A DNA stretch of 19,990 bases from Jimgerdemannia flammicorona (Eukaryota; Mucoromycota; Endogonomycetes; Endogonales; Endogonaceae): the NCBI GenBank assembly GCA_003990745.1, contig RBNI01002027.1, positions 1-19,990 of the forward strand, read 5' to 3'. Shown piece after piece: positions 3,845 to 19,031 of the stretch (position 1 is the stretch's first letter; every line of letters begins with the position of its first letter). The position numbers and the translations under genes were made by a program. The notes below the pieces were generated by a model. That model was not told the DNA's origin. It saw only the letters and a program-made list of their open reading frames with translations, and did not search any database.

Positions 3845-3904
3845 ATGGATTGGTCATGGCAACTATCCTCGCCTCACAGCAAGACAATGCCGGTGCCCAA
3901 GTGA
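3845..3904 (+). promoter_or_regulatory. Upstream ORF overlapping the main start codon
   Basis: An ATG at 3845, eleven bases before the main ATG, opens a 19-codon frame in a different register that ends at TGA 3902-3904, past the main start. The first ATG has T at -3, a weak context. The main ATG has G at -3 and G at +4, a better one. If the leader includes 3845, the large protein would depend on leaky scanning. No transcript start is known, so its use is inferred. Confidence 0.4.
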
Positions 3905-6900
3905 TTCTGTCGGAAATCCCTGCTGGCGTAACATCCACCAACATCCTTGAAGCTCTGATATGTTACAGGCTAGCGCGCGTCACGGTGGCTGTTAGACACG
4001 ATAATACTGCCATAGTCAACGGCCTCTCAAATGACGCATATGCCTCTTTGATCTCCCTGGGAAGATTAATGGTCGCCGGCCACTGGGTAAAGCCCATTTT
4101 GACAGATGAAAACTCGACCGTTTGAATAATTCCCTAACGTGGATTTGCAATCGGTTCATTGTAGGTCAACGTCAGAAAAACGTCATTCGATCCTAGTCGA
4201 AGTCCGACAGACAGTTTCGCCTCTAATCACAATGTCGGAAATGTAATCTATAACAACGTGCATACCTTTCCGGAAAATTTACCAAATCTGCAACCAAGAG
4301 ATGGAAGCTACGCCGAGAGGCAACGAGTCGATAGTGTATCGCGACATTATCCCTTCCAAGGTGGCCAGCCTGTTCCGAGTTGGCCAGCTGCGGTACCAAT
4401 GCCGCCCCCTCATTACGTCATGAATTCGAGTGAACAGAATGGGAATCGTCAACAATTGTTCCACCCAGATTCCGGGACCCAAGGTAGGTGATCTAGCGAT
4501 TGGGGTTACGGATATTGTGGCGAAGTAGATAGGACATGTGCACTTGTATGGACTCCTTAACCTCTTGCTTCTTCGGTTCCAGGTCTTGTTGAAGAAAGGC
4601 CTGCCAGACAACTGACCAACACCGCGGCCTACAATGGTACGGAACTCCTACTTTGGCACCAAAACGTGTAGCGATATTCGTAACTCATATATTTCACTAC
4701 AACCTTCCTCGCCTTCTATTACCCATAGCCGGTGCCGACGCCAAGAACGTTTGCCCCCTCTGCCGCATGGTTCTCGAAAACGACACAAACTTAATCAACA
4801 TCCACATAGACAACTGTCTCGCCAAAAGAGCTGCGGCCCTGGAAGCGCAAAGTCCGTTGCCGGTGCCGAGCACGCGCGACAATGGTAGAAACGCATATGA
4901 CACGATTGAAGACTTTCCATACTACCATAATCAACCAGTCGTCATGAAGGCCAAGGCCAATGAAACAACCTCGCGCTTAGGAATTGACGAGGGCTCCTCG
5001 GTGTATCTTGTCGGTGTACCACAGAATCTTGATGAAGGATCGGTTATTGCTAAGGTGTGTCAGATGAAAGATACATTTAAAAATGCGACAAGAGCACACC
5101 ATTGTAATTGTCATCGACGTAATCCAATGTCAGCCATTCATTAAACAGCCTTTTATTTGAATCCATGTCTGTAGTTTTCAGCGGCTTTCGGAGATGTTCT
5201 CCTATGCAAAATCGGCCGCATGACACGAATAGGTTGCGTGATGTTCGCCCGTCGCGAAGCTGCCCAGAAAGCCTTGGTTACTGGAAGCATGTCATTTCCT
5301 CTGGGCCATGGTACAACAATGGGTGGAAATTTCATTGAAATGAAGATAAAAGAGAAGTGAGTCTCGTCGACTGTACGATTTTTAATTGAGTTGAAATGTA
5401 TCACGCATCCCCGAATTTTATTATAATTCACATTTTATGGAACACCAATTAGAGCGACCGCAATACTCTTTGTCGGAGGAAGTCTCGGAGATAATCTCAT
5501 GATGGACCTGGAAAATTACCTGGCCAAGGTATTCAAGGGAACTTGGAGCAGAAACCCCGAGAGTGGAATGCAAGGTTTTCTCGCTTTTGATTGTGATTTT
5601 GATGCTGCGGAAAAAGCATTGGCTGCGCAGAGGTAGGGAATTCGCGATTATCTGTATTTATTATTTTTGGGGGATCTGTTTATATACTATTCTTACCAAT
5701 CACACGACACCTTTTTCCCATTTGCTTTTCTTAATAGAATCAACTACAACCAACAAATCCTCGTATTTTATGCTCAAACCGGCATGGTTTATTTGGAAGA
5801 ATTGCCTCCGACCGCTACGTGCGAGAAAATCGCCTATGCGCTTCGAGACCTATTGCCCACAATTGGGAGAGCGAATGTGAGTTTATGTACCAGCGAAGGT
5901 ACGGGAGTTATTTTGTTGGCCAATCCCGCGTTGAAAGAGCAACTACTGGCGTTGGAGAAAGTTCAAGTAAGTCGTATTCGGCCCATGCTCTATTCCCAAA
6001 TAGCAATTTGTATCTGTTTGAATTCGTGACTCATCGAACTTCCACGTCGTCCACTAGATCGACAACAAACACGTAATGCTATCCTGGGAAGCCGTTCCGA
6101 AGGTCTGCATGGAGGAGATACCACGCGAAATACTCCAACAACCTCAGAGTGCATTGATTCGGGCTATCGCTTCCTTGCCAATCTTTGAAGGGATGGTCAC
6201 CAACGTTGACTTGCGTAGTAGGGAGGGGATGGCTATCTTGTCGCTGAAGGACACCAAAATCCGATCCAGGTAAGTCTGCAATCTCACTCTCGCCCAATTG
6301 GCATTAGCGTATATCGGTATGGAAACGCTGCTTATATCACGGAATTCCTTTACTGTCTCCTAGGGTATTGGGTCAATGCCAGTTATTGGCCCCGTTTCTT
6401 CTAGGCCGTCCAGTGTTCATCCGTGCCATGCGGGCAACGCCGGCAACCTGGGAGTTTGATGATGAATGGTATCAACGCGCCCACATTCATGAATCAATCG
6501 GTATGAGTTGACAAAATCAGTTATATACGAGATCGCGTTTAATACCTGAATCTGAAGCTCGGATCCCTTTTTGACATTTTTGACAACACGAATACTCCGC
6601 AGATCGATATGCCGCCGATCAATCCGTCTTTCTTCGGGAATGGAAACCCGAAATATGGCTTCATTGGAAGTCGAAATATGACGTTGATTTCCGAAACGCG
6701 ATTAGCGTGAGTTCAAGGACAGTTCATGCGGTTTCTTTTCTTGTATAATAATGGAAATCTCAATTTTTTTCTTTCTTTCATGCTTTGATTTCAGAAAAAC
6801 GACAGCGGGGCCGTCAGCCGCGCTAACCAGCAAGTGCATGGAATTCGTGTCACCGTCATGCTGGCTACTTTGGCCGCTGTTCGCAAAGGGTACTATTTTC

Positions 6901-9482
6901 CTTTTGAACATGATCCCACTGTGAGAATTCCAATCTCTCCGCCAAGGCAACCTTCAGAATCGTTCACCTTCGCGGCACTTCCTCCATCCTCGACTGTTAT
7001 GTACGAATACACATCGATTTCCGTGATCAAACGAGATTGCCTCCTGGCCGCACTAACTATGAAAGAAGGCGGGTTCCGACCGGTGGTCCTCAATATGGCT
7101 TCGGTTCGTAAGCCAAACTTATTCATCAAATGTCTCTACTCTTGCTTGATGGGCGATCATTGATTGATTATATTACACTTCAATTATAGTCAACGAGCCC
7201 CGGTGGTGGATATCGGAAAGGAGATGGTGCTCAGGAGGAAAATATCTTTCGTCGATCAAACTATTTCTTGAGCCTTGACGACCCCACGAACCCGCGATGT
7301 CCCACCTATCCGATCGCCGAATTTGGCGGCATCTATACACCTGATGTCACGGTCTTTCGTGATTCGGAGGATTCAGGATACGCTTTTCGTCAGATTCCTT
7401 TCACAATGGACTTCATAGCCGTTGCCGCTTATCGGTACGTCACACAAATAGCGATGTTGTGTCTGTTTTGCCATTTGCGCGTCCTAACTTCAATCCTCAT
7501 CATGCTACTGGCAGAAAACCGAAGGTGCAAAATAACTGCCTTTCATTTGAAGACGCTGCCCGGACGCGTAGGAAGATTGAAGCAATTTTCGCAATTGCGC
7601 TTCACAAGGGTCATGACAGTTTGCTGTTATCTGCGCTTGGATGTGGGGCTTTCCAAAATCCTCCGCATCATATTGCAGGTAAATTCTATACAATAGTTTG
7701 ATGGATTATCTTGTTTCTCGAATACCATTGTAAATATTCTCCCCTCCGAATTCCTGCAGCCATTTTTCTAGCTGTTGCGCAACAATATTCACGAAGGTTC
7801 AGAAAAATTGTATTTGCAATAGTCGAGGATCACAACAGTATAACCACCACCAACCCAGCTGGCAACTACGAAATTTTCTCTCACAATCTTGAGCACGCTA
7901 ATCTTGGGCCAGGTATACCCACCCTACCCCCGATTACGGGGCCCACGGTGGAGACGTGCTCGTTTGGAGGTGGTTGTGATATGGCTGAAACTATACATAC
8001 CAAAGAATTCTATCACCCTCCGTTCTGTCCGTTCGGCAAGGATTGCAAAACTACCGGTATTGCGCATGTACACTCACTTTTGAATTTTTGGATTGCCCTA
8101 CATCCGAATTGTCATTTACTTTGCTTTATTTTGACAGATGCCAATCACATTTTCCTCTTCCGCCACGTTCGGCCCTGCAAGCGAAAAGGACTTTGCATCG
8201 AATACAATGAGCCTGGTCATGCGGAGCTATTCTCTCACCCATCCTTTTGCGAAAATGGCGGTGGATGTCTTTTGACGGAGGACGCGCATCTCCAGCAGTT
8301 TCTCCATGTTCCGTTGTGCGCAAAGGGTGTTTCCTGTCCCAACAAGGAGGTGAGGCCGCACGCCGAGCATTTCCGGCATATCAAGGCACAATGTCGAGAC
8401 GGTGGCTTCTGTGGCCAGTACATGGTCGTTGCTCACATGGAGCAATACGTGCACCCTTTCAACACACCCTGCCGCGATACCCCGTTCGCGTGTACGAACA
8501 GGGATGTCAATCACGTCACAAAGTTCGCACATGTTTGTAAATATGGTGCGACATGTCCCCAATTGTTGGACCTCCTCCATGCGAAAAATTCGATCCATGT
8601 AGTCCGCACTCCATGTTCTGATGGTAACAAATGCATGCTTTTCTTAAATGAGGAGCATTTGGATTTGTTTTCGCATCCTGGGATCGCAGATATTCGATCA
8701 ACATGCATATTCTGGCAAGGTATTATTCTTCTGCATTGTCCACACTGTTCGTTTTGTGGCACTCCACGCATTTACGAATTTTCCCATTGTCCCTATCTCC
8801 TAGGATGCACCAAACGCAGTCAGTTATCTCATATCGCAGAGTGCGCACACCCATCCGAAGGTCCACCGATTTCAAGCTATGATGACGCCGGTCAGGATAT
8901 AAATTTCTCCGGCAACGCGCAGGATATTATCAAGGCGACTGATGCGTACTTTGCAAAAAAAGCGAAAAATTTTGAGATACCTGAAGAGGTTGTTGAATGG
9001 GTAAAGGGATTACGGCCAGCGCATCGTGTGAGACCGAAGATTTTTAAAAGTATATTGGCTCATCATCATGTAAGTTCGCATTTCTGGGATTTCGTTTATT
9101 CATATCTATAACACAACACGCATTCTCATAGGATTTTTGTGCAGGTCATGTCGGCGGATCACATTCAAAAACTCAAGAATCCGAAGTGGGCATCACACGA
9201 AGCTCGGCATCACCCTTTGGTGAGGGAAATATGTGAGAGGAACAATTTCGCAGAAATCGAACGGAATAATTTGAAGGTACATAATAATCTTTGGTTTGCG
9301 AGGTGGCAAAAGTGATTTTTCGAACTATGATTTCCATTCCATCCGCAGGATTTGGTGGAACGTGCAGTGCTTGTTGCTCATGGGAAAGCAGCAGATGATA
9401 CGCAATTACCAAGCTGGGAAGCAGACCTCACTTTGAAAATAGAGGCTTGTAATCAATTTCTCACGAGGTTCGTACCTCCATT

Positions 9483-9539
<57 letters not shown>

Positions 9540-12200
9540 GCAGCGAGCAGATGAAGCCCTTGTTCGACCTGGGTGATCTTCTTGTTCAGGCCACAAGAGA
9601 CCTTGCTGCCAATGCTGATGGGATTGGGATTAATTATAATGTTGACAAGGTACTGGGAACCAACAAGCAAGTGTTCGGCATCCTTGGACCCCACACTGGT
9701 ATGTCGAAGGGTAATCTGTCAGATTCTGTGAATGTTGGAGTCACCATAATTACAGTAATGATAAATGTGTAAATAGGTCACTACTATGGCGATATCATAT
9801 TGTTGTTCAAGCCGGACATCATGAATCACCCACAATCGAACGTTACACCAAACGCTGCTACGGCGTTTTGGTCCGGAAAGTACGCCATTCCGAGGGCTTT
9901 CCAGCCATCATTCGTTATGATTCCTTCTGGCGATTTGATGTCCACTTTGTACTCAATGATTACGAAATTTAATTTAAAACCATACAGAGAGGCCACTTTT
10001 CGACCATTTATGCCAAGAGAAAAGCATCATTCCGATGAAGCTTTGAAAAAGTTTCATGGATCAAAGTTGCATCCCAGCTGCGGCAATTGGGCAAAAGCAG
10101 CGGCTGCCGATATCTGCGCGCAGGTATGTTTGACAAGCTTGGCCACATTGAGTACAGTACTGCAGTCTTTATGCGGAATTCACTTCGAGATTTCACAATC
10201 CTTGTTTATTGTTGTAAGGTTATGGAGACCACGGGAAAAACACTCCTTTCTTTGGATGACATTAAAACCGAGTGGATGAAGAGAGACTCTCATTTCGTAT
10301 TCGAGGCGCATTTGCCAAGCCTCATCCCGCTCTCATTTGTAGATAAGGTCATCATCCCTAAGGTAACATGTTTGAGCATAATGATATTTAAACATTTTTG
10401 TAGAGTAACCCGTTAGATTGATTGAATTTTCTTTTTCCTAGAATATTTGGGATAACAATTTGACTGACACCGATAAGCAACAGTTTCGACTGGCATTTCC
10501 CGACCCGAGCAATGATGTCGTAGTAATCTGTGATCCAGTTGGAGGGGATGTCGATGGACATCTCGATTTGACCGACGATAGGAGAAAGCTCATAAAAATC
10601 GCCATGGAGCACTGTTCATCGCCGCAAACTGACGCCATGACTGTCCCCCGATCGCTCGGCATGAGCGTTACTCTGGAGCGCGGGAAAGGTGCCATCCTGC
10701 CCCTACCATTCCGTTTTCGGGTCGCGGGCGAGGGAAATATCTATTTCCGTGCCAAGGGTAGCGAGTTTTTCGTTATGCTTACGGAGAAGCAGACCAAGGA
10801 TAGCTTCAACAATGGTGCGCGGCTTACCTTCTTTTTCGGTGGTCCCAAATCGCACATCCTCTACATCACCAAAAGCCCACCTTCGGCTCATAGAGTAACG
10901 CTTGACAGGAAGAATTGGATGACACGAGACTGGGAATTCGATCGCGGTTTCGCTGAGGGAGATTGGGTCAATTACCACATACAGCTGGACAGCAAGTACG
11001 TCGCTTCGGTATTTCCTATTGCTTTTGGATTGAATTTATGAATCGTTCATAATGACTAAACTGAAATCAACACCATTAGGCAAAAGATCTGCATGGTGGA
11101 GCATTGGGGTCATTCGCAGATTTACAATCGGCGAACACTGGTTCTTAATACAGATGCTGTTCCTGGAGAATACAGCTTCAATGTACAGTGGTTGGGAATC
11201 GGAGTATGGAAGAATCAGGTACGTGTTCATGGTATCGGGCATGTAGACCTGAAATTAGTAACCATTGTATTGATGTGTAACCACATCGATAGGTCTCATT
11301 CGAATACATCGAGGTGCATCAAAAGCCGATGGCAGTCAATGCCATAGCTCAACCACAAGAGCTGTTCCCTGGGCCGTTGCCTGGGCCGTCATCTGTACCG
11401 TCGACTGGACCATCGCCTGGACCGTCGCCTGGACCGTCGCCTGGACCGTCGCCTGGACCGTCACGTGGAAAAACATTGAGATTTCTTACAAGCGCATTTT
11501 CGGCCTTAAAGGTAAACAAAGCTTCAACGGACGCTCCGACGACACCAAGTGCGACGCTGACGCCTAATACTGACTCCACGGCCTTAAAGGTAACCAAAGC
11601 TTCAACGAACGCTCCAACGACACCAGGTGCGAGGCCGACGCCTATTGCTGACTCCACACTTCTCAGCGGAGCCTTTCAAGCAAATGATAAGGCCGTTTGT
11701 AGCCTTCAAACGTTTTGTCCCAATTACAACGACTCAGCTCATTGTCAAAATTATGTGCATCCGTTCGTGACGCCCTGTCGCAACATGGCGACGTGTAAAT
11801 TCCAATTTATCAAATCGCCACACAACCAGGTAATCGTCAATCTCTTTGGCAGACTTGTTAGTTCACGATGAGCATGCGTTTTCCATAATGCTTTTAGTGT
11901 CGGATCGTTTACTGACGGAATTCTATACAAATCATGCAGGAGCGTTCCCATCTATGTCGGTTCGGCAATGGATGTCGTGAACTGAACGATGCCGAGCACC
12001 GGCTTTATTATATACATAAGTGTTTGCCAAAATGCGTGGATGACCAGAATTGTGCGCAGATAGGTGACTGGTGGCACCGCGAGAGCTTCCAGCATGACAA
12101 ATTGCCCTGCATTCTGATTCCCTGCAATGCCGGCTTACGGTGTCCTAGAATCAACGACTTGGGACATGCTAACGTCTACAAACATATCTCGAGACAGTGA
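3856..12200 (+). CDS. Giant ADP-ribose hub: UBZ4-RRM-PARG-PBZ array protein (25 exons, 2,074 aa)
   Basis: Reconstructed exons: 3856-4086, 4165-4483, 4583-4636, 4729-5054, 5175-5356, 5453-5632, 5738-5966, 6058-6269, 6364-6500, 6603-6706, 6795-7103, 7190-7434, 7515-7678, 7760-8056, 8138-8719, 8804-9069, 9145-9276, 9349-9467, 9544-9698, 9777-10123, 10219-10362, 10442-10995, 11080-11218, 11293-11829, 11940-12200. They total 6,225 nt and stay in phase throughout, and several junctions are confirmed because they restore a zinc-finger spacing or the PARG signature. Domain order: RRM-like (about 10-80), UBZ4 (210-232), RRM-like (291-370, 372-445, 447-520, 535-612), PARG (about 660-945), ten PBZ-type fingers (964-1206), helical linker (1207-1390), ART-like candidate (1395-1578), beta-rich module (1640-1815), Pro/Ser/Thr repeats (1835-1931), five PBZ-type fingers (1945-2070). 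Likely role: binding and hydrolysing poly(ADP-ribose), perhaps on ubiquitinated or RNA-bound targets. No signal peptide or membrane segment is visible, so nucleus or cytosol is expected. ATG 3856 is chosen over the out-of-frame ATG at 3845. A split into two genes is possible but nothing calls for it. Confidence 0.85.
3880..4177 (+). other. Domain: first RRM-like repeat (residues about 10-82)
   Basis: The first exon has the beta-alpha-beta-beta-alpha-beta order of an RNA-recognition fold: a strand ending in SEIPAG, a helix around TNILEAL, a strand VTVAVR, a strand TAIVNGLS followed by a helix and a last strand AGHWVNV that crosses intron 1. The aromatic residues of classical RNP motifs are not kept, so RNA binding is uncertain. 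It could equally be a protein-interaction RRM-like fold. Confidence 0.45.
4752..4817 (+). other. Domain: UBZ4 (Rad18-type) ubiquitin-binding zinc finger
   Basis: Residues 210-232 show C210-x2-C213-x13-H227-x3-C231 with the typical sequence CPLC at the front and NIHIDNCL at the back. This is the pattern of UBZ4 fingers in Rad18 and related DNA-repair proteins, which bind mono- or polyubiquitin. All four zinc ligands are present. The spacing between the ligand pairs is slightly longer than in Rad18, within what I would expect of the family. It suggests recruitment to ubiquitinated targets. Confidence 0.75.
4995..6462 (+). other. Domain: tandem RRM-like repeats 2-5 (residues about 291-612)
   Basis: Four successive units look RRM-like. 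Unit 2 (exons 4-5) has VYLVGVP as the RNP2-like strand and RIGCVMFARREAA as the RNP1-like strand with its helix. Unit 3 (exon 6) has AILFVGG and MQGFLAFDCDFDAAEKAL. Unit 4 (exon 7) has MVYLEELPP and GTGVILLANP. Unit 5 (exons 8-9) has GMAILSLKD and ends in GRPVFIRAM, a typical last strand. Introns fall within the units at varying positions. Units 2 and 3 are the clearest; unit 5 is the weakest. A series of divergent RRMs next to ADP-ribose domains recalls animal PARP14 and PARP10. Confidence 0.6.
6795..7900 (+). other. Domain: microbial-type PARG catalytic domain (residues about 660-945)
   Basis: This matches the microbial-type poly(ADP-ribose) glycohydrolase family (TIGR02452/DUF2263; macrodomain fold), which removes ADP-ribose from PAR chains. 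Marks in order: VVLNMAS before the loop, then PGGG (765-768), GGG-x7-QEE with Q776, E777, E778, GIYTPDVTVFR, a strand FIAVAAYR, LLLSALGCGAFQNPP (879-893) and IVFAIVEDHN. In PARGs the second glutamate of QEE is catalytic; it is kept here as E778. All key elements are intact, so an active enzyme is expected. The signature is formed only after splicing exon 11 to exon 12. Confidence 0.88.
7957..8850 (+). other. Domain: ten tandem PBZ-type CCHH fingers (residues 964-1206)
   Basis: Ten units fit C-x5-C-x6/7-H-x5-H (finger 7 has C-x6-C). The first cysteines are at residues 964, 987, 1010, 1034, 1057, 1082, 1108, 1130, 1156 and 1186. This is the ligand spacing of the PBZ finger of APLF and CHFR, which binds poly(ADP-ribose), and several units keep the aromatic and glycine after the first Cys (SFGGG, PFGKD, KYGAT) and the HP after the last His. 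Linkers are 3, 3, 3, 3, 4, 5, 1, 5 and 9 residues. Fingers 2 and 10 are completed across introns 14 and 15. PAR binding is inferred from the family; the basic and aromatic contact residues vary. Confidence 0.75.
9468..9543 (+). other. Intron 18 with a 54-base poly(T) tract
   Basis: This 76-bp intron is mostly one uninterrupted T run (9485-9538) lying just before the acceptor GGCAG. It serves as an extreme polypyrimidine tract. The donor is GTTCGT. Flanking exons join in phase, giving Ser at the junction. The run length may vary between strains or be misassembled. Confidence 0.7.
9640..10362 (+). other. Domain: unassigned module with ADP-ribosyltransferase-like features (residues about 1395-1578)
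   Basis: The module contains YYGDIILLFKPDI (1417-1429), AATAFWSG, SKLHPSCGNWAKAAAADI (ending near 1528) and HFVFEAHLPSLIPLSFVDKV (1555-1574) before VIIPKN. In several ART-fold enzymes an early YGD-type strand is followed late in the domain by a strand bearing the catalytic Glu and then a 'lPLs.I..I..p' pair; E1559 sits where that Glu would be. I cannot identify the other catalytic residues. This is a fold guess, not an assignment. It could be a different alpha/beta domain. The module looks conserved rather than linker-like: compositionally complex, with Trp, Gly and Cys spread through it. Confidence 0.3.
10625..11325 (+). other. Domain: beta-rich module, possibly Methyltransf_FA-like (residues about 1640-1815)
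   Basis: Exons 22-23 plus the start of exon 24 encode alternating strands rich in Phe, Tyr and Val: PFRFRVAGEGNIYFRAKG, a VMLTEKQ strand, RLTFFFGGPKSHILYITK, and later DWVNYHIQL and FEYIEV. The order 'F.aKg...v.Lt....i.iGG...s.i' recalls the farnesoic acid O-methyltransferase-type domain (PF12248), thought to be a lectin-like beta sandwich. The match is loose. Any jelly-roll domain would explain the pattern. Confidence 0.3.
11377..11472 (+). repeat. Coding 12-bp minisatellite (Gly-Pro-Ser-Pro linker)
   Basis: Four perfect copies of TCGCCTGGACCG lie at 11413-11460, with worn copies on both sides. In frame they give a GPSP repeat between residues about 1835 and 1866, a flexible, probably extended linker between the beta-rich module and the second finger array. 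Copy number is likely to vary between strains. Confidence 0.85.
11503..11658 (+). repeat. 78-bp direct repeat in exon 24 (two copies)
   Basis: Copies at 11503-11580 and 11581-11658 adjoin exactly and encode two 26-residue units (1880-1905 and 1906-1931) that both begin ALKV and contain KAST.APTTP. Most differences between them are single bases. The duplication keeps the frame and lengthens the Thr/Pro-rich linker. Confidence 0.85.
11698..12185 (+). other. Domain: C-terminal array of five PBZ-type fingers (residues 1945-2070)
   Basis: Five units fit C-x5-C-x7/8-H-x5-H, with first cysteines at residues 1945, 1971, 1994, 2020 and 2050. Finger 12 is completed across intron 24, which supports that junction. 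Linkers are 5, 1, 5 and 9 residues, the same as between fingers 6-10 of the first array, and both arrays share HPF.TPC after their first finger. The protein ends four residues after the last ligand His. The function expected is poly(ADP-ribose) binding, by family. Confidence 0.75.
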
Positions 12201-17655: not shown

Positions 17656-18524
17656 TTATTCCACAAGCCCACGACTGCTCCCGCCAACCTCTTGCAATCG
17701 CATCGACCACTCGGCGGGATACTGTAAAGAATTCCTCCCAATGGGATGCTTGCTGCTCGACTCGTCCATTTCTGGTGAATACGCCTTGCGCATAGCTACT
17801 TTCCATTTGTCTCTTTGGCTACCCGCATGCGCCGGGCGTGCCGGGATAATTTGCATGTCGCCACATCCCCCGTTTCCTGCCCCTCGTTTTCGAGCTTCGC
17901 CTCCGTCGTTCGTTTTCAACGTCTGGAGGGCGCTTGTTAATGCGTTTGCTAATCCTCCGACATCGCTCGTATTTCCGATGGTTCCTCCTGTACTGGTATT
18001 TCGTTCGGCCGAGTGGATTATACGATGGCTGGGCACAGCGTTGCCAATTCCTTCCCCCATGTGCATGGGGTGCGGTTAACAATTCGCTGAGCTTTTTTCC
18101 TGTCATACGTCGGGACTTTGCAAGTTGTCGCATGTAATTGAAGAAGTCGTTGGTGGTATTCCGAGCTTCATTACGATTTACGAGTCGACGGTATTTGTCT
18201 AAGTGGTCGCTTAATTCGTTTTGCATGGCGAGGGCGAAACCAGCGAGGTCTTTATCCTCGTCGCGGTTTTCAGGGGTTCTGGATCTCGTACCGAACCGAG
18301 TCTTCCTGGGGTCTGGTCCTAGGCTTCGGCTACGGCTACGGCTCCTTTCTGGCGAACGCCACCATCCTCGCGAGTTAACCGGCTCAATGCTGCCTACCGT
18401 CACCTTCGAACGGGTTAGCCATCGAGTCTTCCATAGGGTGTCCTCGTCTCCGAGCAAATCTTGATGACGAAAACATTTTAGTGGGGTCGTTTGGGTTCGA
18501 GTCATAGATTATTGCATCAGCCAT
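17656..18524 (-). CDS. Unknown RS-rich basic protein (three exons, 253 aa)
   Basis: Read leftwards from ATG at 18524-18522, three exons join in phase: 18524-18404, 18348-18081 and 18028-17656, stop included (762 nt). The introns are 55 and 52 bp, with ends GTGACG..GCCAG and GTTAAC..CCCAG. The start MADAIIYDSNPNDPTK is followed by an RS repeat (ERSRSRSRSLG), then a charged, probably helical stretch (AMQNELSDHLDKYRRLVNR, FFNYMRQLAKSRR), and a Gly/Asn/Ser-rich tail with a VGGLANALTSALQTLK helix. No family is recognised. RS repeats suggest a nuclear or RNA-linked protein, but that is weak. Both introns are shorter than those of the large gene and the second donor is unusual, so two frameshifts in a decaying gene are an alternative. 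Confidence 0.45.
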
Positions 18525-18533
18525 GTCATTTGT

Positions 18534-19031
18534 TTGGGCCTTCCTAATGCTAGTCTTTTTGCACGTGCAGTCGTTAGTGTTTACGAATCCGTGATTTCTG
18601 CAGATCACTACCCGGTCGTTTGCGAAGACCAGGGATCTAGACAGGAATATGGGTCTTGTGTAACATTAGGAAGCCTCAAAGCTGTAGGATATGACCTGTA
18701 TGCAGCTGAAGAAACCGCCTCAGTATCCAATTGCAAAGTCGAACAAGTCTACATTGGGATAAGCATCAAAGCCCCAGGAGAACATGTTGAAAAAATCTGC
18801 TATCATAGCAGCCTTGCTCTTAAAGGACTCACTATGAAAGGAGGAGTTATAGATGAAGACTATAGTTGCATAGTTCAAGTATCCGCAATTAAAGACGAAT
18901 TTGAGCTTATTACAATTTGCATAAATTGGTTTGAAGCCACGGACAAGGAGTACGTGACGCATATACAACAAGAATTACGACATGCTCAACGGAGTCCGCA
19001 ATTAACCGCCTCTTGGTTTTCTCGTTGGTAA
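18534..19031 (+). pseudogene. dUTPase-like frame with damaged active-site motifs
   Basis: The frame is open for 165 codons but has no ATG before the conserved part; the only in-frame Met comes after motif II. Motif I (AVGYDLYAAE, 18681-18710), the following strand VYIGISIKAPGEHVEKI, motif II (HSSLALKG) and motif III (GGVIDEDYSCIVQV) follow the trimeric dUTPase pattern, an enzyme that hydrolyses dUTP to dUMP and keeps uracil out of DNA. Motif II has His where the family has Arg, motif III has Cys where Gly is usual, motif IV is not recognisable, and the Gly-rich motif V is missing, replaced by RHAQRSPQLTASWFSRW. Its low CpG content and lack of a start suggest a fragment of a retroelement polyprotein. 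The first 25 codons overlap, in antisense, the leader of the minus-strand gene. Confidence 0.6.

Follow-up and report, generated by a model that had tools for sequence, protein, structure and literature searches.

In the accounts given in PMC10470015 and PMC10499325, human PARP14 is a writer, reader and eraser of ADP-ribose in one chain of more than 1,800 residues, with RRM domains, ADP-ribose readers, a hydrolase and an ADP-ribosyltransferase (ART). For the bdelloid rotifer Adineta vaga, a bacterial-type PARG with PBZ repeats is described (PMC4245714, citing Slade 2011), and a PBZ-tagged DNA ligase K/E is reported as common to bdelloids and Mortierella (PMC6264785, PMC10665377). A 2014 survey could not find PBZ in Fungi (PMC4245714); the PBZ-bearing ligase of Mortierella came into print after it (PMC6264785). 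Here we describe a gene of the Endogonales fungus Jimgerdemannia flammicorona, located at 3856..12200 on the forward strand of contig RBNI01002027.1 (19,990 nucleotides, the whole of which we call the window; all features given below lie on the same strand). The order of its modules is an N-terminal group of RRM-like, UBZ4-type and RRM-like elements, a PARG domain, ten PBZ-type fingers, a predicted ART-fold domain, a predicted lectin-like sandwich, and five further PBZ-type fingers. As the two finger arrays flank the ART-fold domain and the sandwich, a predicted writer (ART), a predicted eraser (PARG) and predicted readers (PBZ) are united in a single chain.

The likeness to PARP14 is one of working and not of membership, since PARP14 is built with macrodomains, KH, WWE and a PARP-type ART, whereas the fungal protein has PARG, PBZ and a non-PARP ART. 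With the A. vaga protein the common part is a PARG with PBZ fingers. The cited text of PMC4245714 describes PARG and PBZ only, whereas the bdelloid relatives examined here, A. vaga included, appear also to carry the ART and, mostly, the C-terminal fingers; the fungal copy differs further in its UBZ4-like finger and RRM character, in place of which some rotifer copies have RING or RanBP2 matches. Ligase K/E is likewise a PBZ protein common to bdelloids and a Mucoromycota fungus, but it is described with one or two PBZ fingers, and the cited portions of those papers mention neither PARG nor ART. An earlier note on this DNA, made from the sequence alone, had held that no described protein has this combination, which stands for the full set and falls for PARG with PBZ, already in print for A. 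vaga (PMC4245714). No mention of an ART in these proteins was found in the accessible portions of the open-licence PMC literature, which does not show its absence from print.

Gene model, PARG domain and PBZ-type finger arrays

Joining the exons by script at GT..AG borders from the ATG at 3856 gave an open frame of exactly 2,074 residues, reproducing the single phase-consistent frame of the earlier note; eight splice combinations were tried, and the frame was broken in seven, staying open only in the 2,074-residue version. Aligned with rotifer proteins, this chain has an insert of approximately 36 residues soon after its GHYYGDI motif. Within the corresponding exon (9777-10123) lies a further GT..AG intron of 108 bases at 9880..9987, the removal of which keeps the frame. 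Alternative cuts in this exon stay in frame too, and the 9880-9987 cut restores the length of the relatives: with it, AATAFWSGK-EATFRPFMP is equal in length to the rotifer relatives, as seen in the corrected fungal chain, AATAFWSGKEATFRPFMP, and the equally long AATSYASGNAYKWRPWLG of P0014. DNA matching this interval has stop codons in the paralogs C1554, C43 and C3886; in C4435 and C871 it is open in the part seen, which does not decide. Because the extra intron agrees better with both the relatives and the paralog stop codons, the 2,074-residue form was rejected as the final one, and the gene is refined to 2,038 residues in 26 exons, with 25 introns of 72-120 bases and a stop codon at 12198-12200. 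G+C content is 49.3% in exons versus 37.6% in introns. A run of 54 T at 9485-9538 lies within intron 9468-9543, and the flanking exons still join in frame.

Compared exon by exon with three PARG-bearing paralogs (C4435, C871 and C1554), the gene shows ratios of non-synonymous to synonymous substitution (dN/dS) of 0.295, 0.292 and 0.263 over 1,904, 1,889 and 1,707 codons, respectively, and because ratios of 0.26-0.30 hold over 1,707-1,904 codons, we regard it as a coding gene and more than one long open frame. In this codon comparison the 54-base exon 3 has no match in any of the three paralogs, and exons 1-3 have none in C871. Together with the collinear single-chain relatives P0002, P0003 and P0145, these results establish one large, real coding gene, whose architecture and conservation are secure. 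Among the fungal database proteins listed for J. flammicorona, the window's own gene does not appear.

Run on the whole 2,074-residue protein, Pfam reports PARG_cat_microb alone. This domain (PF10021; 6828..7884, residues 670-939) scores 74.6 bits against a cut-off of 23.5, and its signature GGG-x7-QEE (7202..7240) is kept in C4435, C871 and C1554. A profile of 70 family rows matched the T. curvata PARG structure 3sig at E 8.6e-17. As judged from these profiles, the assignment to the PARG family is certain, and the complete microbial-type PARG reported earlier is upheld.

The PBZ-type fingers form a first array of ten (7957..8853, residues 964-1207) and a second array of five (11698..12188, residues 1909-2035). 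Fifteen motifs of the form C-x4-6-C-x5-9-H-x4-6-H were found, 14 of which fit the strict form C-x5-C-x6-8-H-x5-H, against a mean of 0.08 loose motifs (maximum 2) and 0.001 strict motifs in 1,000 shuffled controls. The window's first array scores 13.7 bits with PF10283, under the cut-off of 22.7, and the same profile stays under its cut-off in P0003 (18.8 bits) and the fungal P0123. Over the cut-off are the Rotaria P0002 counterpart of the second array (23.9 bits) and the relatives P0004 (24.4), P0005 (45.3), P0014 (34.6), P0026 (48.5) and P0145 (31.1 bits). Precomputed matches among the best 120 of 341 relatives include PF10283 in 46 and PF10021 in all 120, and the PBZ structures of APLF were matched by the 70-row profile only at E 0.04. 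The fifteen fingers that the earlier note had counted are thus borne out by motif statistics and by the scores of relatives, through which the PBZ assignment, itself drawn from sequence, appears well supported.

Two other loci of the draft genome (G000) concern the same finger type. At G000:C5086:3701-3772 a canonical PBZ match of 51.4 bits lies in an open frame of 199 residues, adding to the evidence for PBZ in fungi. At G000:C3849:12788-14149, PARP catalytic exons are accompanied by a nearby PBZ-like match on the same strand (19.7 bits, under the cut-off), possibly representing a PARP-PBZ protein.

The ART-fold domain and the lectin-like sandwich

The earlier list of modules was incomplete, as it overlooked the two domains between the finger arrays; with the ART-fold domain, the predicted writer was missed. 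This domain (8890..10462, residues 1220-1549) is a previously unrecognised part of the protein and its most surprising one. A model of the homologous rotifer segment has an AF2 confidence score (pLDDT) of 90.5, and its first 15 structural matches are SopF, OspC3/CopC, DarT and Tpt1. An ART fold is therefore found on predicted models of rotifer segments and not on the window's own chain, and on these models we consider the fold very probable. The domain is followed by a predicted beta-sandwich (10646..11328, residues 1611-1785), the lectin-like concanavalin/galectin/CBM66-type fold of which was found on a predicted Rotaria segment, and by a low-complexity PGPSPGPS linker (11368..11466, residues 1799-1831).

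Two motifs may mark the active site. The Tyr of H-Y-Y-G-D-I (9779..9796) is the candidate Tyr of the ART triad, and Glu 1523 in E-A-H-L-P (10303..10317) is the candidate catalytic Glu; both residues are kept in the window at the level of the sequence motifs. The candidate Glu is invariant in all 100 rows of the family alignment, and E-A-H-L-P recurs in the Pelomyxa protein P0145 and in six other loci of this genome (C4435, C1554, C871, C43, C2281 and C3886).

SopF (from Salmonella) and OspC3/CopC share 11-13% identity with the ART model and have no sequence-profile match to it; they are effectors that bacteria inject, and their structures were solved together with a host partner, ARF1 or calmodulin. 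For DarT, identity is 6-15% and the alignment starts only at approximately model residue 40, leaving out the initial portion of the model that SopF and OspC3 cover. The DarT likeness leaves room for a system in which the ART would mark DNA or RNA, positioned by the RRM and lectin-like parts and reversed by PARG or another hydrolase, serving genome defence or stress and expanded in asexual rotifers. We hold this to be distinctly improbable: the nearest folds, those of SopF and OspC3/CopC, belong to enzymes with proteins as targets (Z differences of approximately 1 cannot choose between them), and PADLOC and PHROGs gave nothing on P0145 and P0026, the only two proteins tested.

The PARP catalytic family PF00644 has no Pfam match in the window protein up to a limit of E 10, and PARP-type catalytic domains are not among the 50 structural rows for the ART model, which does not exclude them. 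A scan of genome contigs with the ART profile gave 173 stretches that fit the pattern and none that was confirmed, a weak negative given that two stretches close to the domain start supplied the patterns. Matches in the PDB to Pumilio homolog 1 (E 0.0045, whole-family profile) and to a channel (E 1.7, ART profile) were taken as chance.

Several observations weigh against an active writer in the fungal protein and against its joint working with the other modules. The structure models are predictions from homologous rotifer segments and not from fungal sequence, the ART domain is linked to no known ART by Pfam or PDB sequence profiles, and the Foldseek E-values of its model are weak (best 0.089). 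At two positions that never vary across the 100 rows, the Asp of HHPD and Trp264, the window instead has Gln and Phe, which could mean an altered or weaker fungal site. The expression YG[DEN]I matched in only 50 of the 125 proteins with the full order, and P0003 is without the Tyr of the ART motif. An aromatic residue two positions past the first Cys, a contact for poly(ADP-ribose) (PAR), is present in only 5 of the 15 fingers, and many fingers may therefore be structural. Finally, the D. radiodurans PARG is described as having no hydrolytic effect on mono-ADP-ribose linked to Glu or Ser (PMC6445106); a PARG of bacterial type does not necessarily take off the last, protein-linked ADP-ribose, and eraser and writer may therefore act on different products.

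The fungal changes at the two invariant sites would suit a protein that only reads and erases PAR, in which the ART-fold domain has no catalysis of its own, serving as a pseudo-enzyme or scaffold, and a PBZ-targeted PARG removes PAR at damage sites. PARG and PBZ are indeed the modules with the firmest family matches, and the cited text of PMC4245714 presents the A. vaga protein as PARG plus PBZ. We nevertheless judge this account unlikely, if deserving of some weight, given the invariance of the candidate Glu across the family rows, the persistence of its motif in all seven fungal loci found, including two (C43 and C2281) in which no PARG was found, and the dN/dS of the ART exons (0.15-0.25), which is near that of PARG (0.18-0.23; N-terminal exons, 0.40-0.43). 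That the ART is active in the fungal protein seems to us somewhat more probable than not.

Paralogs, relatives and the variable N-terminus

The gene does not stand alone: the draft genome (134.8 Mb, 7,754 contigs) has no fewer than seven related loci, this one included, PARG not having been found in three of them. A search with the ART and sandwich segment, which gives a lower bound, identified the window, C4435, C871, C1554, C43, C2281 and C3886. Four of these have PARG, the order being recovered by tblastn in C4435, C871 and C1554 as well; C43 and C2281 have PBZ-ART-sandwich-PBZ, C43 also with the first RRM-like segment; and C3886 reaches the contig end, with only the ART and part of the sandwich visible. 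In the stretches fetched for C43, C2281 and C3886, tblastn found no PARG segment and a six-frame test no PARG signature; the latter would overlook an intron-split signature such as that on C1579, which tblastn would not. In the genome, PARG_cat_microb matches lie in the four PARG-bearing loci and in a further gene at G000:C1579:4774-5780, where PARG stands alone, its signature split by an intron and the other modules not found. Repetition was seen at two loci: on G000:C43:10000-12600 (L051, L052) several stretches of the C-terminal PBZ part match one and the same set of query residues, suggesting tandem finger expansion, and on G000:C871 (L009, L010) window residues ~288-578 are matched twice in succession, the RRM-like region apparently being duplicated.

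Beyond this fungus, a first search with the whole 2,074-residue query gave three relatives, and a profile search gave 341 proteins, with the bdelloid rotifers Rotaria, Adineta and Didymodactylos as the organisms named among the best 120. A query with the fungal PARG-to-ART segment gave 228 proteins; among the best 120 of these are Pelomyxa schiedti P0145 (29% over 99%) and a Geosiphon pyriformis protein with PARG as its only listed domain. A regular expression requiring PARG, three or more fingers and the ART Glu motif in succession was found in 125 of 231 proteins (230 fetched plus the window) and in 113 of the best 120 of the 341 profile-search relatives; it is not matched by the fungal entries of the database, which are short gene models. 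The same order, as read from sequence, is thus present in a large bdelloid rotifer protein family and in the amoeba P. schiedti, which rules out the dedicated fungal protein, or hub, that the earlier note had envisaged.

In a PARG tree of 78 rows chosen from the 231, the four fungal copies make up a separate, long-stemmed clade (100/100) and group with 33 rows (rotifer and others; support 99/94), with the fungi outside those; Pelomyxa is on a very long branch. As the fungal copies stand beside the rotifers and not inside them, and given the long stems and the Pelomyxa branch, we assign no direction to any transfer between the two groups. Contamination of the fungal culture, with contigs derived from a rotifer or some other organism, must also be weighed, since rotifers supply the nearest full-length relatives outside the genome, and the draft is in 7,754 contigs with no undisputed fungal gene identified beside the window gene. 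Such contamination is very unlikely in view of the separate fungal clade outside the rotifers, the seven loci, and the membership in the same gene family of P0122, which bears another locus-tag prefix of the same species (BC938DRAFT versus BC936DRAFT, which we take to be two isolates).

The N-terminal modules are likely, if more weakly assigned than PARG and PBZ from their sequences. RRM-like segment 1 (3892..4179, residues 13-82) has tblastn matches in C4435, C1554 and C43 and no Pfam match of its own. RRM-like domain 2 (4995..5354, residues 291-370) scores 14.0 bits with RRM_1 (PF00076), under the cut-off of 20.7, and the paralog protein P0124 scores 27.7, over it; RRM structures were matched by the family profile only at E 1.9 and 2.7. 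The further, putative segments that the earlier note read as RRM-like (5454..6430, residues 372-600) align in part with the rotifer N-terminus. Of the up to five RRM-like domains proposed there, one region accordingly has profile scores behind it, over the cut-off in the paralog protein and under it in the window, and the rest are putative.

The UBZ4-type finger (4746..4820, residues 208-232; C-P-x-C..I-N-x-H-I-x-x-C) keeps its C-x2-C..H-x3-C pattern in all four PARG-bearing fungal copies. Its best PDB matches are DNA polymerase kappa (E 0.097) and RAD18 (E 0.69), followed by ovomucoid (0.7) and TRIM5 (4); polymerase kappa and RAD18 are known for UBZ fingers. With a four-row finger profile TRAF6 ranks first, polymerase kappa, WRNIP1 (E 0.047) and RAD18 also being matched, and Pfam UBZ has no match for this finger in the window protein. 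The finger motif is present and is probably of the UBZ4 type, a naming qualified by the TRAF6 ranking and the missing Pfam match.

RING matches occur in 8 of the best 120 of the 341 relatives (P0005, P0007, P0012, P0013, P0029, P0048, P0052 and P0119), and P0005, the one in which position was looked at, has two RING fingers at its N-terminus; some rotifer copies have RanBP2 matches, and in P0145 PARG already lies at residues 71-216. The N-terminus is therefore the variable part of these proteins. The RING-bearing rotifer relatives may be PAR-dependent ubiquitin ligases that also have PARG and ART domains. Elsewhere in the window, an open frame at 18468-19031 has a dUTPase match (42.5 bits versus a cut-off of 22), perhaps part of a separate gene or mobile element; it was the only one over its cut-off among nine neighbouring open reading frames tested.

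Proposed working and its meaning

We lean, by a little, towards a PAR-anchored regulator of ADP-ribosylation with a joint write-read-erase role. PAR made by the cell's own PARPs would be caught by those PBZ fingers that keep the PAR-contact residues and trimmed by the PARG domain; the ART domain, of the SopF/OspC/DarT structural group, would add ADP-ribose, more likely mono-ADP-ribose, to a nearby protein or nucleic acid; and the N-terminal UBZ4 and RRM modules may pick ubiquitylated or RNA-bound sites, perhaps in a damage or stress response. The protein would then work like human PARP14, built from unrelated modules. We rate at about even the chances of the broader account, in which a eukaryotic family spanning an Endogonales fungus, bdelloid rotifers and Pelomyxa would unite in a single polypeptide a complete machinery for reversible ADP-ribosylation (a writer of the SopF/DarT class, PARG as eraser, and PBZ readers numbering up to 15 or more, with coupled ubiquitin and RNA modules), having converged on the PARP14 plan from wholly different parts, with PARG-plus and PARG-minus paralogs in one genome.

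The findings place long PBZ arrays in a fungus and, after ligase K/E, add a second PBZ protein common to stress-tolerant bdelloids and Mucoromycota fungi. They also point to a bacterial-effector-like ART fold within a conserved eukaryotic protein. The fungus itself offers a natural comparison of the four PARG-bearing paralogs with the two of PBZ-ART type that yielded no PARG. Should the ART prove active, the making, reading and removal of ADP-ribose marks would fall to a single polypeptide that has no PARP-type catalytic domain, and there would be two non-homologous routes to the PARP14 plan.

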